Assembly: GCA_002215645.1 (NCBI GenBank)
Contig: NGFI01000005.1
Location: 302,678-366,677, forward strand
Length of the DNA: 64,000 nt
Origin: Gemmatimonadetes bacterium 2013_60CM_65_52
GTDB lineage: Bacteria > Gemmatimonadota > Gemmatimonadetes > Gemmatimonadales > Gemmatimonadaceae
Direction: 5' to 3'
The notes beneath the pieces were generated by a model. That model had not been told where the DNA came from. It did no database searches and saw nothing but the letters and a program-made list of their open reading frames with translations. The translations under genes were made by a program, and so were the position numbers. Position 1 is the first letter of the stretch. Every line of letters begins with the position of its first letter. Shown here one piece after another: positions 34,514-39,177 of the stretch.

Positions 34514-36334
34514 CTAATTCGCCGCCGCCACGGGCAGCGTAAGACGGAAGGTGGCACCCTGGGTAAACGTCGTCGCGAGGGTGAGGTCGCCCTCATTCGC
34601 GCGTGCCAGCGTGCGCGAGACGGCGAGCCCCAAGCCGATGCCGCGCGCCTTCGTAGTGAACAGCGGCTCGAAGATCTTGGCCACGTTCTCCGGCGCCACT
34701 CCCGGTCCGCTGTCGGTGACGTCGCAGTGAACGACCTGCTCACCGGTGTGCGCCTGGACCTTGATGCGCCCGGAGTAGTCCATCGCCTGCATGGCGTTGG
34801 TGAGCAGATTGAGAATGATCTGGCCCACCTGGACGCTGTCCACGAGCACGTTCGGCAAATCGGTCGGGAACTGGGTCTCGATGGCGACGCCGTTCGTGGA
34901 GCCCAGGCGGGCGATCTGAGCGCTCATGACGTCGCCGAGCGACGCCGGCGAGCGCTGAGGCGACTTCAGACGTGCGAAATCGAGCAGATCGCTGACGATC
35001 TTCTCCGACAGCGTGATCTGCTGCTGGAGAATGTCGAGATACTCGATGACGTTGGACGGACTGCTCGCCAGCACCATCTTCAGGTAATACACGGCGTTCG
35101 TCATGACGCCGAGCGGGTTCCGCAGCTCGTGGCCGACGCCGCTGGCCAGCTGGCCGAGCATGGCCAGCTTCTCGCGGCGCACGAGCGATTCCTGCGTCTC
35201 GTGCAGCTGGAAGAGCGTGTCATTCAGCTCGCGCGTTCGCTCCTCCACCAGGTGCTCCAGGTTGCCACGAGAGCGGTCCACTTCCGCCGCCATGAGGTCG
35301 AAGGCGTCGCCCAGCCGTCCCAGCTCGTCTCCTCGGCCAATCTGCGCGCGCTGTGAGAAATCTCCGGCAGCGATTGCATCGGCCGCGGTGGCCAGTTGGC
35401 TGAGCGGCGCGGTGAGGCGCCGGCTCATGGTCCACGCTACAGCGAGCGCGACCAGAAGTGCCACGACGCCGATGATCGCCATTCTGCCGATGAATGCGTC
35501 CACCGGTGCGAAGATGGCGCGCATGGGGAAGGCGACGGACACCATCCATGGCGTGCGCGGGATGGGTGCAATGCTTGCCAGCACGGCGCCCGAGTCGCCG
35601 GGCATCTCCTGGGGCGTCGACGTGGGCGCCGTGGCTCGCTTCGGCAACGTGACTTCCTTTTCCAGGTCGGTGGCGTAGGTGCCGTCCGCGTTGCCGATCA
35701 GCAGAGTGGCGCTGGTTCCCACGAGTGTCGCCATCTGCTCGCGCGCCTTGGGCGACGCCTGCACCTTGCGCCACTGCACGACGAAGAGCCCGGGCGCACC
35801 CTTCACGGGCGCGACGGCGGGATACCCTGCGCCGCCAACGAGCCGGCGAAACCTTCCGACGGAGGCGCTGTCTCGGTGCAATGCATCGGTCATGGCACCC
35901 ACGGGCACTCTCGGCCCCGTGTCCGACGCCGACGCGGTGGACAGCAGCAACTGTCCAGTGGAGTCGCGAAGCTCGGTGGCGATGACCTGTTCCGGCTGTG
36001 GCCCGTGGTACGTCAGCGCTTGCAGTGCCGCTGCGCGCGCCGTGACATCGTTCGAGCCTGCGTACCCCGCCAGAGCCGGACTCGACGCGGTGGCTGTAAC
36101 CTGCGCGCGCAGTTGTGTGGCAGACAATTGCAGCGCGGTGGCGAATTGCTGCGTCACCCTCACGACGCGTTCAGAGGCCACGCGCTTCGCGGCGCCTCGC
36201 ACCTCGAGAATTGCGGCGGCGGAGAGGGAAAGTATGACGACGAGCAGCAGGCCGCCGATGACCAGGGGTATCTTCTGCTCGAGCGACAGTTTGGAGAAAA
36301 ACCCACCGCGCGCTTGCTTCGCAGTGTCTTGCAT
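34514..36334 (-). CDS. Membrane sensor histidine kinase (Cache-like sensor, HAMP, HisKA, HATPase)
   Basis: 606 residues. Membrane helix one spans about 23-44; an extracytoplasmic Cache-like sensor follows (about 45-280, with TPWMVSVAFP near its end); helix two is about 284-304. Then come a HAMP domain (RRLTAPLSQLATAADAIAAGDFSQRA), a coiled coil with an EERTRELNDTLFQLHETQESLVRREKLAMLGQLASG linker, HisKA with His402 in GVGHELRNPLG, and HATPase_c with N box NLLTNAMQAM, G1 DSGPGV and G2 GIGLGL. It is the first gene of a three-gene unit with a double receiver and a hybrid kinase. The ligand is unknown. The divergent neighbour is the tandem LysR protein. Confidence 0.93.
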   Translation of the reverse strand: MQDTAKQARGGFFSKLSLEQKIPLVIGGLLLVVILSLSAAAILEVRGAAKRVASERVVRVTQQFATALQLSATQLRAQVTATASSPALAGYAGSNDVTARAAALQALTYHGPQPEQVIATELRDSTGQLLLSTASASDTGPRVPVGAMTDALHRDSASVGRFRRLVGGAGYPAVAPVKGAPGLFVVQWRKVQASPKAREQMATLVGTSATLLIGNADGTYATDLEKEVTLPKRATAPTSTPQEMPGDSGAVLASIAPIPRTPWMVSVAFPMRAIFAPVDAFIGRMAIIGVVALLVALAVAWTMSRRLTAPLSQLATAADAIAAGDFSQRAQIGRGDELGRLGDAFDLMAAEVDRSRGNLEHLVEERTRELNDTLFQLHETQESLVRREKLAMLGQLASGVGHELRNPLGVMTNAVYYLKMVLASSPSNVIEYLDILQQQITLSEKIVSDLLDFARLKSPQRSPASLGDVMSAQIARLGSTNGVAIETQFPTDLPNVLVDSVQVGQIILNLLTNAMQAMDYSGRIKVQAHTGEQVVHCDVTDSGPGVAPENVAKIFEPLFTTKARGIGLGLAVSRTLARANEGDLTLATTFTQGATFRLTLPVAAAN

Positions 36335-36556
36335 GCCAGCTCCGATCGGGTAGAGGCGTGGCGGACTCCGCCGTTAACTCCGCTCCCACGCTTGACATAC
36401 ACTCATACGTGTCTGTCGCGGGACCCGACCAATACTTCATTTGCAGAGCAGCTATGCAGTTTTTCGATGACGTGCCGATACTCCGTCACGAAAAGCGCGG
36501 GGTTTCCGCCCCGGGCGGCGGTACGCTGTCCAATGATCTGCACTCCGGAGGGACGC

Positions 36557-38407
36557 TTGATCCTGAGGCATCTGCGCTATTTCGCGACCACTGCCGACGA
36601 AGGCGGAGTGACGAGGGCAGCGGCCAGGCTGCGCATGGCACAACCGGCACTGTCCCGGTCGATCCATGATCTCGAGGAGGCGGTCGGAGCAACGCTGCTC
36701 GAGCGGGACAATCGAGGGGTTCGTCTCACTCCGGCCGGCGTCGTTCTTCGAGACGGTATCGACCTCATCCACGCGCACCTGATCGAAGCGTTGCGCCTGG
36801 TCGCGCTGGCGCACGAGGGCAGGGTTGCAACCCTGCGCATTGGGATGAGCCGTGAAGCGCTGCACAGCCACACACTCGGGCGGGTGATCGCGGCCTATCG
36901 GAAGAAATACCCCGACGTGGAGCTCGTCGTCAGCGAGTTACCGATGTCATTGCAGCCGACTGCGCTCAGAGTGGCCGAGGTGGACGGCGCCATCAGTGCT
37001 GGTGGCGAGGACGAGTCGGCGATTCAGTGCGAGACACTCTTTCACGACCGCATCAACAGCGCGATGCTCGCTGTCTCGCACCCGCTTGCCGGCGCGAGCG
37101 CGCTCACGCCGGAAGAGCTGCGGTCGGTGCCCCTTCGGCTCGACGCCAGCTCCGTCGCGCGCTTGCCCGCGCTTCGGACCGCTCTCGATCAGTTGGGCTT
37201 CGCGTGGGAGGAGGTCGACGGAGTGGACACCGCGCTGAGCTATGTCGCAGCCGGGAATGGCTGGCTTCCGGCACTTCGCTCTCTTCAGTCGACGTCGCCA
37301 GCGGGCCTTGCCGTGAAGCCCGTGATCGGGCTGGATGTTCCGGTGCCGATGGTGCTGCGATGGAACAGCGCTCCACCCGGCGCGGCCCTCCAGAATCTGT
37401 TGGCGATTGCGTCGCGCGTCGTCGCGGAGGAAGAGGACGGAGCGTCATCGCCCCGCCGTCGGAGCTCCAGTCCCCGGCTCCAACTCCTGCCCGACGCCTC
37501 CGGCGGCGGAATCGAGCTGCGGCAGCTTCGCGCGCTCGTGACCTCCATAGAGGAAGGATCCCTGAGTGCCGCCGCCACGCGACTCGGCGTCACGCAGTCG
37601 GCCATCTCGCGGCAGGTGCGGAGTCTCGAGGATGCTGTCGGCGTTCAGCTGCTCAACCGCGGCGGGCGACGACTTGTGGCCACTGCCGCCGGCGAAGCGC
37701 TGCGCGGTGCGGCAACTGTAATCCTCGGCATCCTCGACGAAACGTTCCAGCGCGCGCGGGCGACGTCACGCGGCATCACGGCGCGATGCACGATCGGCAG
37801 CGTGCCTCGCGAGCTGACGAATGGCGTGCTCGTGAGTGCCCTTCAGCAGCTCACTCAGCTTCATCCGGAGCTGTCCGTCAGCGTCGTGGAGAATCCGGCA
37901 CCGGATAGCCTGTTCACCCGCGAAGTGGATCTCACCGTCACGTCGATGTTTCCCGGCGCCGTGGACAACCCCATGATCTCGACGGTGTTGTTACGGGACG
38001 ATCCGCTGGACTGTGCCCTTCTCGCCGAGTCGCACCCCTTGGCGAAACGGGAGTGGATTCAGCCGGCGGAGCTGATGGACCATCCCTTCCTGTTCATCTC
38101 CAGGTCGTACGCGCCGAACGCCTACGATCACATCATCGGGGCGCTACAGAAGTTCGGCATTGCTCCGACCATCGGCGGCGAGTTCAATGGAGCGCGCGTG
38201 TTGTGGTCGGTCGTGGCGGGTGGGGATGGGTGGGCACTCGGGACGCGGTCGCTGCGCACCAACCCGCCGGCCGGCATCGTCGCCCGGCCGATCGAGGGAC
38301 TGCACATCCCGTGGGGCGTAGGTCTGATGTGGCGCAAGAACGAGAGCGATCCCGTGATCAAGCAGGTGATCGAAGTGTTCAGAAATCCGCAGCGTTTACA
38401 GGTGTAA
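36557..38407 (+). CDS. Tandem fusion of two LysR-type transcriptional regulators
   Basis: 616 residues containing two complete LysR proteins in one chain. The first unit has a helix-turn-helix at 3-62 (LRHLRYFATTADEGGVTRAAARLRMAQPALSRSIHDLE) and an effector-binding domain to about 295. A Ser/Arg/Pro-rich linker (SSPRRRSSSPRLQLLP) joins a second helix-turn-helix at about 319-378 (LRQLRALVTSIEEGSLSAAATRLGVTQSAISRQVRSLE) and a second substrate-binding domain. I prefer the TTG at 36557 as start because GGAGGGA lies five bases upstream and family homology begins there; an in-frame ATG at 36533 is possible. There is no stop codon or frameshift between halves. It is divergent from the sensor-kinase operon. 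LysR proteins normally act as tetramers of single-unit chains, so the covalent doublet is unusual. Confidence 0.9.
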   Translation: MILRHLRYFATTADEGGVTRAAARLRMAQPALSRSIHDLEEAVGATLLERDNRGVRLTPAGVVLRDGIDLIHAHLIEALRLVALAHEGRVATLRIGMSREALHSHTLGRVIAAYRKKYPDVELVVSELPMSLQPTALRVAEVDGAISAGGEDESAIQCETLFHDRINSAMLAVSHPLAGASALTPEELRSVPLRLDASSVARLPALRTALDQLGFAWEEVDGVDTALSYVAAGNGWLPALRSLQSTSPAGLAVKPVIGLDVPVPMVLRWNSAPPGAALQNLLAIASRVVAEEEDGASSPRRRSSSPRLQLLPDASGGGIELRQLRALVTSIEEGSLSAAATRLGVTQSAISRQVRSLEDAVGVQLLNRGGRRLVATAAGEALRGAATVILGILDETFQRARATSRGITARCTIGSVPRELTNGVLVSALQQLTQLHPELSVSVVENPAPDSLFTREVDLTVTSMFPGAVDNPMISTVLLRDDPLDCALLAESHPLAKREWIQPAELMDHPFLFISRSYAPNAYDHIIGALQKFGIAPTIGGEFNGARVLWSVVAGGDGWALGTRSLRTNPPAGIVARPIEGLHIPWGVGLMWRKNESDPVIKQVIEVFRNPQRLQV

Positions 38408-38490: not shown

Positions 38491-39177
38491 TCAGTCGCGC
38501 AGGTTCCAGAATGCGCTGGTCAAGCCAATGGACCCGAGAAGCGCTTCCGTTTCTTCAAGCGTGTGTCGTCGCCAATCCGGCTTCACCTTATTTCGGTACC
38601 AGCCGTGAGCGAGCTGCCACGTTTGCTCCGGTGTGATGATGGCGCCGCGAGGGAGATCACGGGCGGCACACCATCGGTCGACGTGCTCTTCGTCCCGGAA
38701 GAGCAGCATGGTGCTTCACGTAAAGCCGATATTGTCCCACCAATGGTGCGCTGGAATCGCGAAGTGGACGACGCCCTCACTACGGACTAGACGTTCGTCG
38801 CGCACCTCGAGGGTCATCATGTCTCCGCAATCGCCACACGGTGCGGTGATGACGCCTTCGGTCCCCACAGCGGCCACGATCCCGAGTGCGTCCCAGATGC
38901 AGATGCCCCAGTACTGCCTGCCGCCGGCGGCGACCCGGATACCGGAGGGGACGGCGCAGAATGGATTGGCTGCCCAGATGTTGCCGTCGTTCGGCGCGAG
39001 GATCAGGACCTTCGCCGCGGCGAGCTCGTGGAGAGCTGCGCGAATGTCGGTCTCAGGACGTCCGAGTGCGTGGGCTATATCGGGCGGCTGTGGGACGCGG
39101 CCGGTGGCGGCGGCTTCGCGGAAGATGTGAATGCGAACGTCGCGGAGCAGATTGAGATCCGACACCGGCTCAGTCAT
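38491..39177 (-). CDS. MerB-like organomercurial (alkylmercury) lyase, probable selenoprotein read through UGA
   Basis: A 228-codon reading frame with one internal TGA at 38716-38718 (codon 154). Upstream, an N-terminal winged-helix part (VRIHIFREAAATGRVPQPPDIAHALG) is followed by the MerB catalytic segment with Cys93 and Asp96 (WGICIWDAL), matching MerB Cys96/Asp99. After the TGA the same frame stays open for 74 codons and continues the family (STMLLFRDEEHVDRWC ... LTSAFWNL). The TGA falls where MerB has catalytic Cys159: the Cys93-to-codon-154 spacing is 61, against 63 in MerB. A SECIS-like hairpin follows at once. I read it as selenocysteine at residue 154; the alternative is a nonsense-mutated gene with Cys lost. 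ATG 39177 is chosen over upstream ATGs (39207, 39285), which add unrelated sequence. Expected role: protonolytic cleavage of carbon-mercury bonds. Confidence 0.7.
38668..38714 (-). promoter_or_regulatory. Candidate bacterial SECIS element (selenocysteine insertion hairpin)
   Basis: Directly 3' of the in-frame UGA the mRNA can fold into two stacked stems. The lower stem pairs GCACCAU (38714-38708) with AUGGUGU (38674-38668), six Watson-Crick pairs plus one G-U. The upper stem pairs UGCUCUUC (38705-38698) with GAAGAGCA (38691-38684), eight perfect pairs, closed by the hexaloop CGGGAC. The loop starts 18 nucleotides after the UGA and has G among its first two bases, both within the accepted bacterial SECIS geometry. 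Confidence 0.6.

Follow-up and report, generated by a model that had tools for sequence, protein, structure and literature searches.

Solved structures of the organomercurial lyase MerB (PF03243) include PDB 1s6l, 3f0o, and 3f2f, and MerB2 is represented by 5c17. In MerB, Cys96 and Cys159 hold the mercury and Asp99 assists (PMC4525700). Among the 119 prokaryotic selenoprotein families and subfamilies inventoried in 2026, one is MerB-like: SaoL (NF040728), which carries a Cys-Sec motif (PMC13188914, Table 1). Selenocysteine (Sec) recurs in other mercury-linked proteins, including MerP/mercuric transport protein, the NF041115 metal-binding protein, and HgcA/HgcB (PMC13188914, PMC2398784). These are other protein families, not MerB. 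SaoL, a MerB-like organometallic lyase selenoprotein, was reportedly defined by Haft and Gwadz in 2023.

The window analysed here, a stretch of 64,000 nucleotides of contig NGFI01000005.1 from Gemmatimonadetes bacterium 2013_60CM_65_52, contains a MerB-family gene on its minus strand (Table 1). The frame opens with an ATG at 39177, runs for 153 codons to an in-frame TGA at codon 154 (38718-38716), and continues for 74 sense codons. The whole frame thus has 228 codons, followed by a terminal stop TGA at 38493-38491, and codon 154 is the single in-frame TGA of the gene. Annotation with table 11 breaks the locus into two ORFs of 189 aa (GTG start) and 72 aa. The Pfam MerB domain covers residues 75-194 of the read-through protein with a score of 92.7 bits (E = 2.3e-26), which passes the gathering cut-off of 27 bits, and the match spans the UGA. 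A sequence-only reading of this DNA had proposed one minus-strand frame of 228 codons with one TGA, family homology on both sides of that codon, and a naive annotation that would split the gene. Translation of the frame, the Pfam match across codon 154, and the two table 11 ORFs bear out these proposals. After the UGA, dN is well below dS in all four homologue pairs with computable dS, for instance 0.23 versus 3.8 with homologue L020 and 0.11 versus 0.73 with L021; in the L019 pair, dS after the UGA is saturated.

Table 1. Features of the Sec-type MerB-like gene, in window coordinates.
Feature	Position	Strand	Basis
MerB-family gene, UGA read through	38491..39177	-	Homology flanking the UGA; purifying selection downstream of it
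UGA codon 154, predicted Sec, at the MerB Cys159 position	38716..38718	-	Homologues and alignment to solved MerB/MerB2
Codon Cys93, at the MerB Cys96 position	38899..38901	-	Alignment
Codon Asp96, at the MerB Asp99 position	38890..38892	-	Alignment; Asp in 67/67 Sec forms
Codon Cys114, at the MerB Cys117 signature position	38836..38838	-	Equivalent present in most homologues, not all (54/74 alignment rows)
Predicted bacterial SECIS hairpin, GCUCUUC-CGGGAC-GAAGAGC	38685..38704	-	bSECIS model of PMC13188914; homologue conservation

The window protein and MerB share the fold, the span of the domain, the equivalents of Cys96 and Asp99, and the third catalytic position. Profile alignment with the PDB sequences pairs Cys93 with MerB Cys96, Asp96 with MerB Asp99, and residue 154 with MerB Cys159 and its counterpart Cys in MerB2. 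The spacing from Cys93 to codon 154 is 61 residues, compared with 63 between Cys96 and Cys159 of MerB. The sequence-only reading had assigned Cys93, Asp96, and the UGA to these three positions with almost the same spacing, and the profile alignment agrees. In a structure search, MerB2 and MerB are the best fold matches of an AlphaFold model of the window protein. The model was built with five sequences, has a mean pLDDT of 69, and falls below 50 at residues 142-154. Because its confidence is only moderate, the model supports the fold and does not show the geometry or distances of the active site. The window protein differs from MerB in that it has a predicted Sec, which is the selenium counterpart of Cys, for Cys159, shares about 20% sequence identity, and is not encoded in a mer operon. 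It also misses the cut-offs of the NCBIfam organomercurial lyase models, scoring 28.3 versus 193 bits and 21.3 versus 200 bits.

Homologues were sought in the genome contigs, 99 relatives, 395 Gemmatimonadota genomes, and 396 Acidobacteriota genomes. A comparison of residue 154 among homologues, as proposed in the sequence-only reading, yielded TGA in 67 (designated Sec forms), Cys in 23, and Trp in one degenerate row that lacks Cys93. The recurrence of TGA at one aligned codon greatly exceeds what chance would give. The equivalents of Cys93 and Asp96 are always kept with the TGA. The triad at positions 93, 96, and 154 reads C-D-U in 67 rows, C-C-C in 14, and C-D-C, the canonical MerB-like form, in 8. 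Cys at 154 also occurs in one additional row, which is partial; the degenerate row reads Ser-Asp-Trp. The Sec form is carried by Gemmatimonadota (52 of the 395 genomes searched), Acidobacteriota (15 of 396), and one Deltaproteobacteria/Myxococcota MAG. Most of the carrier genomes are MAGs. Only 12 of the 99 close genomes contain the gene, so its distribution is patchy. No relative of the Sec MerB-like gene was found in the viral contigs scanned.

The C-C-C forms constitute a sister group in Gemmatimonadota, Acidobacteriota, and plasmids of Sphingomonas and Paraburkholderia. They belong to the same full-length family and share 30-37% identity with the window protein, but they have Cys at the Sec site and lack the SECIS core motif. 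Asp96 is present in every Sec form and is replaced by Cys in every C-C-C form. In the tree, the C-C-C rows form one clade with support of 100/99 that is drawn inside the Sec rows, and the deeper forks are weak. This topology suggests, without proving, that the clade arose by one Sec-to-Cys loss together with an Asp-to-Cys change.

Several individual copies deserve description. The plasmid genes of Sphingomonas panacis and Paraburkholderia (L071:4950-5633 and L072:3001-3630, respectively) are C-C-C MerB-like genes in which Cys replaces the catalytic Asp and also occupies the Sec site. In the degenerate row, L141 of the Acidobacteriota genome G573, the Sec site is Trp (TGG) and the Cys93 position is Ser; this copy is probably catalytically dead. 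In the Sec-form copy L103 (genome G134), a further TGA lies in frame at a position that is not conserved, and the hairpin is altered; this copy may be decaying. A plasmid of Rubrobacter radiotolerans carries a fragment (L074; NZ_CP007515.1, 103195-103670), annotated as merB of 270 bp, in which the Sec site is an in-frame TGA and the frame is broken beyond it. This fragment could be what is left of a Sec gene from Actinomycetota.

The neighbours of the Sec gene in the window encode a two-component system, a double LysR ORF, YaeQ, an ion channel, and a GFO/IDH oxidoreductase, and there is no mer operon around it. The double LysR ORF (35396-38407, plus strand) is convergent with the Sec gene. It is a single ORF with two LysR HTH and two LysR substrate-binding domains, the LysR domains beginning at about 36.5 kb, and represents a tandem fusion of two regulators. 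At about 30 loci of other copies, examined with a GC-frame gene caller and with ORFs judged by eye, neither a mer gene nor a neighbour shared between loci was found. MerA scores above the cut-off in 4 of 33 Sec-form genomes checked, and in the window genome the best match to the MerA model stays below it (330 versus 454 bits).

These observations bear on what the protein does. A Sec-containing MerB-family protein might not be an organomercurial lyase at all, and could instead bind metals or metalloids, serve a redox function, or cleave another organometal, such as one of tin, lead, or arsenic. Such a role would suit the lack of adjacent mer genes, the variation of neighbours between genera, and the usual absence of MerA, and SaoL provides a precedent in a non-mer system (PMC13188914). 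However, all Sec forms retain the complete catalytic triad of MerB (C-D-C/U). The absence of MerA is moreover only weak evidence against mercury, because slightly over half of merB-carrying genomes in a large survey (906 of 1795) have no merA (PMC8261052). A non-mercury role remains a serious possibility, though one less likely than not. With no mer operon and MerA usually missing, the name organomercurial lyase, used in the sequence-only reading, is an inference, and other organometals are possible. We favour MerB-type carbon-metal lyase chemistry to a modest degree, an activity inferred without enzyme data. Methylmercury can be put forward only tentatively as the natural substrate, and falls somewhat short of a favoured assignment.

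The evidence that the UGA is read as Sec includes an RNA element located just downstream. By the bSECIS criteria of PMC13188914, the window gene has a predicted hairpin with a 7-bp stem (GCUCUUC/GAAGAGC) and a 6-nt loop (CGGGAC) that starts 18 nt after the UGA. The folding energy of the hairpin region is -19.6 kcal/mol for 48 nt. Most relatives have the hairpin CUUCC-GGUC-GGAAG, with the loop beginning at the 20th nucleotide after the UGA, and the window loop is unlike their GGUC. A CGGG-containing apical loop like that of the window gene occurs in the Sec-type selD of the same genome. Of 64 Sec genes, 63 have a hairpin at the UGA whose stem is 5 bp or longer, compared with 11% at other codons. 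The core TTCCGGTCGGA is present in 57 Sec genes and in none of 22 non-Sec homologues.

The loop codons are frozen in the Sec genes. Arg161 is encoded by CGG in 51 of 52 cases and Ser162 by TCG in 47 of 47, whereas the usage of these codons elsewhere in the same genes is 0.34 and 0.43, respectively. No such freeze was seen in the Cys homologues examined. In addition, one stem pair displays a compensatory U-A/C-G change, observed in 17 sequences, and the covariation score of the hairpin exceeds those of all 500 shuffles and all slid controls. The counts are inflated by kinship, and the amino acids encoded there (Leu/Ala and Glu/Gly) change together. As judged from these alignments, the predicted SECIS-like element is conserved as RNA, not only as protein.

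A search for the Sec machinery, also proposed in the sequence-only reading, located all components in the same genome. SelA scores 542 bits, SelB 349 bits summed, and SelD 367 bits. SelD has its own TGA at the active site (CAGUAAK), and a tRNA-Sec with anticodon TCA (69.6 bits) lies about 95 bp downstream of selD. Among the 395 Gemmatimonadota genomes, selA is present in 50 of the 52 with the Sec form and in 233 of the 343 others (Fisher p = 4e-6, uncorrected for phylogeny). The two Sec-form MAGs without detected selA are 81% and 89% complete. selA is also present in all four genomes of L019, L021, L022, and L023, which were reached by contig scan, and in G103, which was tallied as having the canonical form. 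It is missing from 7 of 11 C-C-C Gemmatimonadota genomes.

The correlation of the gene with selA and the freezing of the hairpin at the nucleotide level are difficult to reconcile with the UGA being an ordinary stop that yields two separate polypeptides or a functional truncated form. The two table 11 ORFs would be compatible with such termination, the second having an ATG (M157) shortly after the UGA, but many homologues have Ile or Tyr in place of M157, and the UGA falls on the position of the family's catalytic Cys. Ordinary termination is thus very improbable. A nonsense mutation or a sequencing error, the latter acknowledged in the sequence-only reading as a possible refutation, would convert the Cys codon TGC or TGT into TGA by a single base and leave a pseudogene or assembly artefact, and the genome is indeed fragmented into 14 contigs. 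This explanation is not upheld and can be excluded for practical purposes, because dozens of independently assembled Gemmatimonadota and Acidobacteriota genomes share the same TGA and the conserved SECIS-like hairpin; the frames are also intact on both sides, and dN is below dS after the UGA where computable. Decoding as another amino acid such as Trp, through a changed code or a suppressor, finds support in the TGG of L141 and is hardly credible, given that the same gene also ends with TGA, that tRNA-Sec, SelA, SelB, and SelD are present, that 23 homologues have Cys at the site, and that L141 also lacks Cys93 and is probably inactive.

Decoding of UGA 154 as Sec is therefore close to certain on the computed frame, family, conserved Sec site, SECIS-like element, and Sec machinery, while incorporation in vivo is inferred in the absence of proteomic or expression evidence. 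The full explanation, Sec at UGA 154 combined with MerB-type carbon-metal cleavage, is highly probable, with its catalytic part inferred and favoured only modestly. According to this explanation, the SelB and tRNA-Sec of the host would decode UGA 154, directed by the hairpin. The Sec154 selenolate would take the place of the MerB Cys159 thiolate and work with Cys93 and Asp96. The substrate, an organomercurial or a comparable organometal, would be held through its metal by Cys93 and Sec154, and Asp96 would relay a proton so that the alkyl group is released. These metal-binding and proton-relay roles are assigned by homology to MerB, and the substrate and the catalytic cycle are inferred. The metal would then be handed to cellular thiols without a dedicated MerA. 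From general chemistry, Sec is expected to be more fully deprotonated and to be a stronger mercury ligand. Release of mercury could be slower, and small-molecule thiols or selenols may then be needed.

SaoL is MerB-related like the window protein, and the two match weakly over the N-terminal two thirds. The Sec forms score 25-48 bits against the SaoL profile (25.5 for the window protein and 47.8 for the best homologue), well short of the cut-off of 140. The match extends no further than profile position 137 of 159 and does not reach the Sec region. Unlike the Cys-Sec motif of SaoL, the residue before Sec in the window family is Thr, rarely Asn, and never Cys. The two families also occur in different taxa. 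The low score and the missing motif are the sole grounds for keeping the window family out of SaoL.

No model in NCBIfam release 20.0 names the Sec MerB-like family, and a search of an open-access literature collection for Gemmatimonadota selenoproteins, which did not cover Haft and Gwadz 2023, yielded no paper with such a protein in title or abstract. The family is apparently unreported. We regard it as a new selenoprotein subfamily because the inventory lists only SaoL, the SaoL scores are low, and neither an NCBIfam model nor a paper was found. Since SaoL is already in the literature (PMC13188914), the novelty lies in the subfamily and not in the idea of a Sec-containing MerB. The broader proposal is a widespread unlisted selenoenzyme subfamily of Gemmatimonadota and Acidobacteriota that acts outside mer operons and uses a selenolate, in place of a thiolate, as a direct metal ligand in the cleavage of carbon-mercury or other carbon-metal bonds; the balance of evidence tips only slightly in its favour.

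The affinity of selenium for mercury is well known chemically, and we know of few natural enzymes for which Sec has been proposed as a mercury ligand in catalysis. The C-D-U, C-C-C, and C-D-C forms provide a natural three-way comparison of one active site. On the broader proposal, merB surveys would miss the Sec gene, since annotation cuts it short and a Cys159 filter discards it. A 2021 survey that required Cys159 recorded MerB in a single Gemmatimonadetes genome (PMC8261052), compared with 52 of 395 genomes carrying the Sec form here, which suggests that merB surveys undercount demethylators. If the enzyme is active, soil and water bacteria with the Sec form would be unrecognised players in methylmercury breakdown.

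A separate observation concerns two Gemmatimonadota genomes, G181 (L152:248-1600, minus strand) and G160 (L153:1354-2706, plus strand). Both encode a flavoprotein resembling MerA and lipoamide dehydrogenase in which an in-frame TGA takes the place of the first Cys in the redox motif (GGT-U-VNEGCVPTK). The L152 gene follows genes for an ArsR-type regulator and a canonical MerB, both of which share its strand. Going by its motif, the flavoprotein is a candidate Sec-containing mercuric-reductase-like protein.
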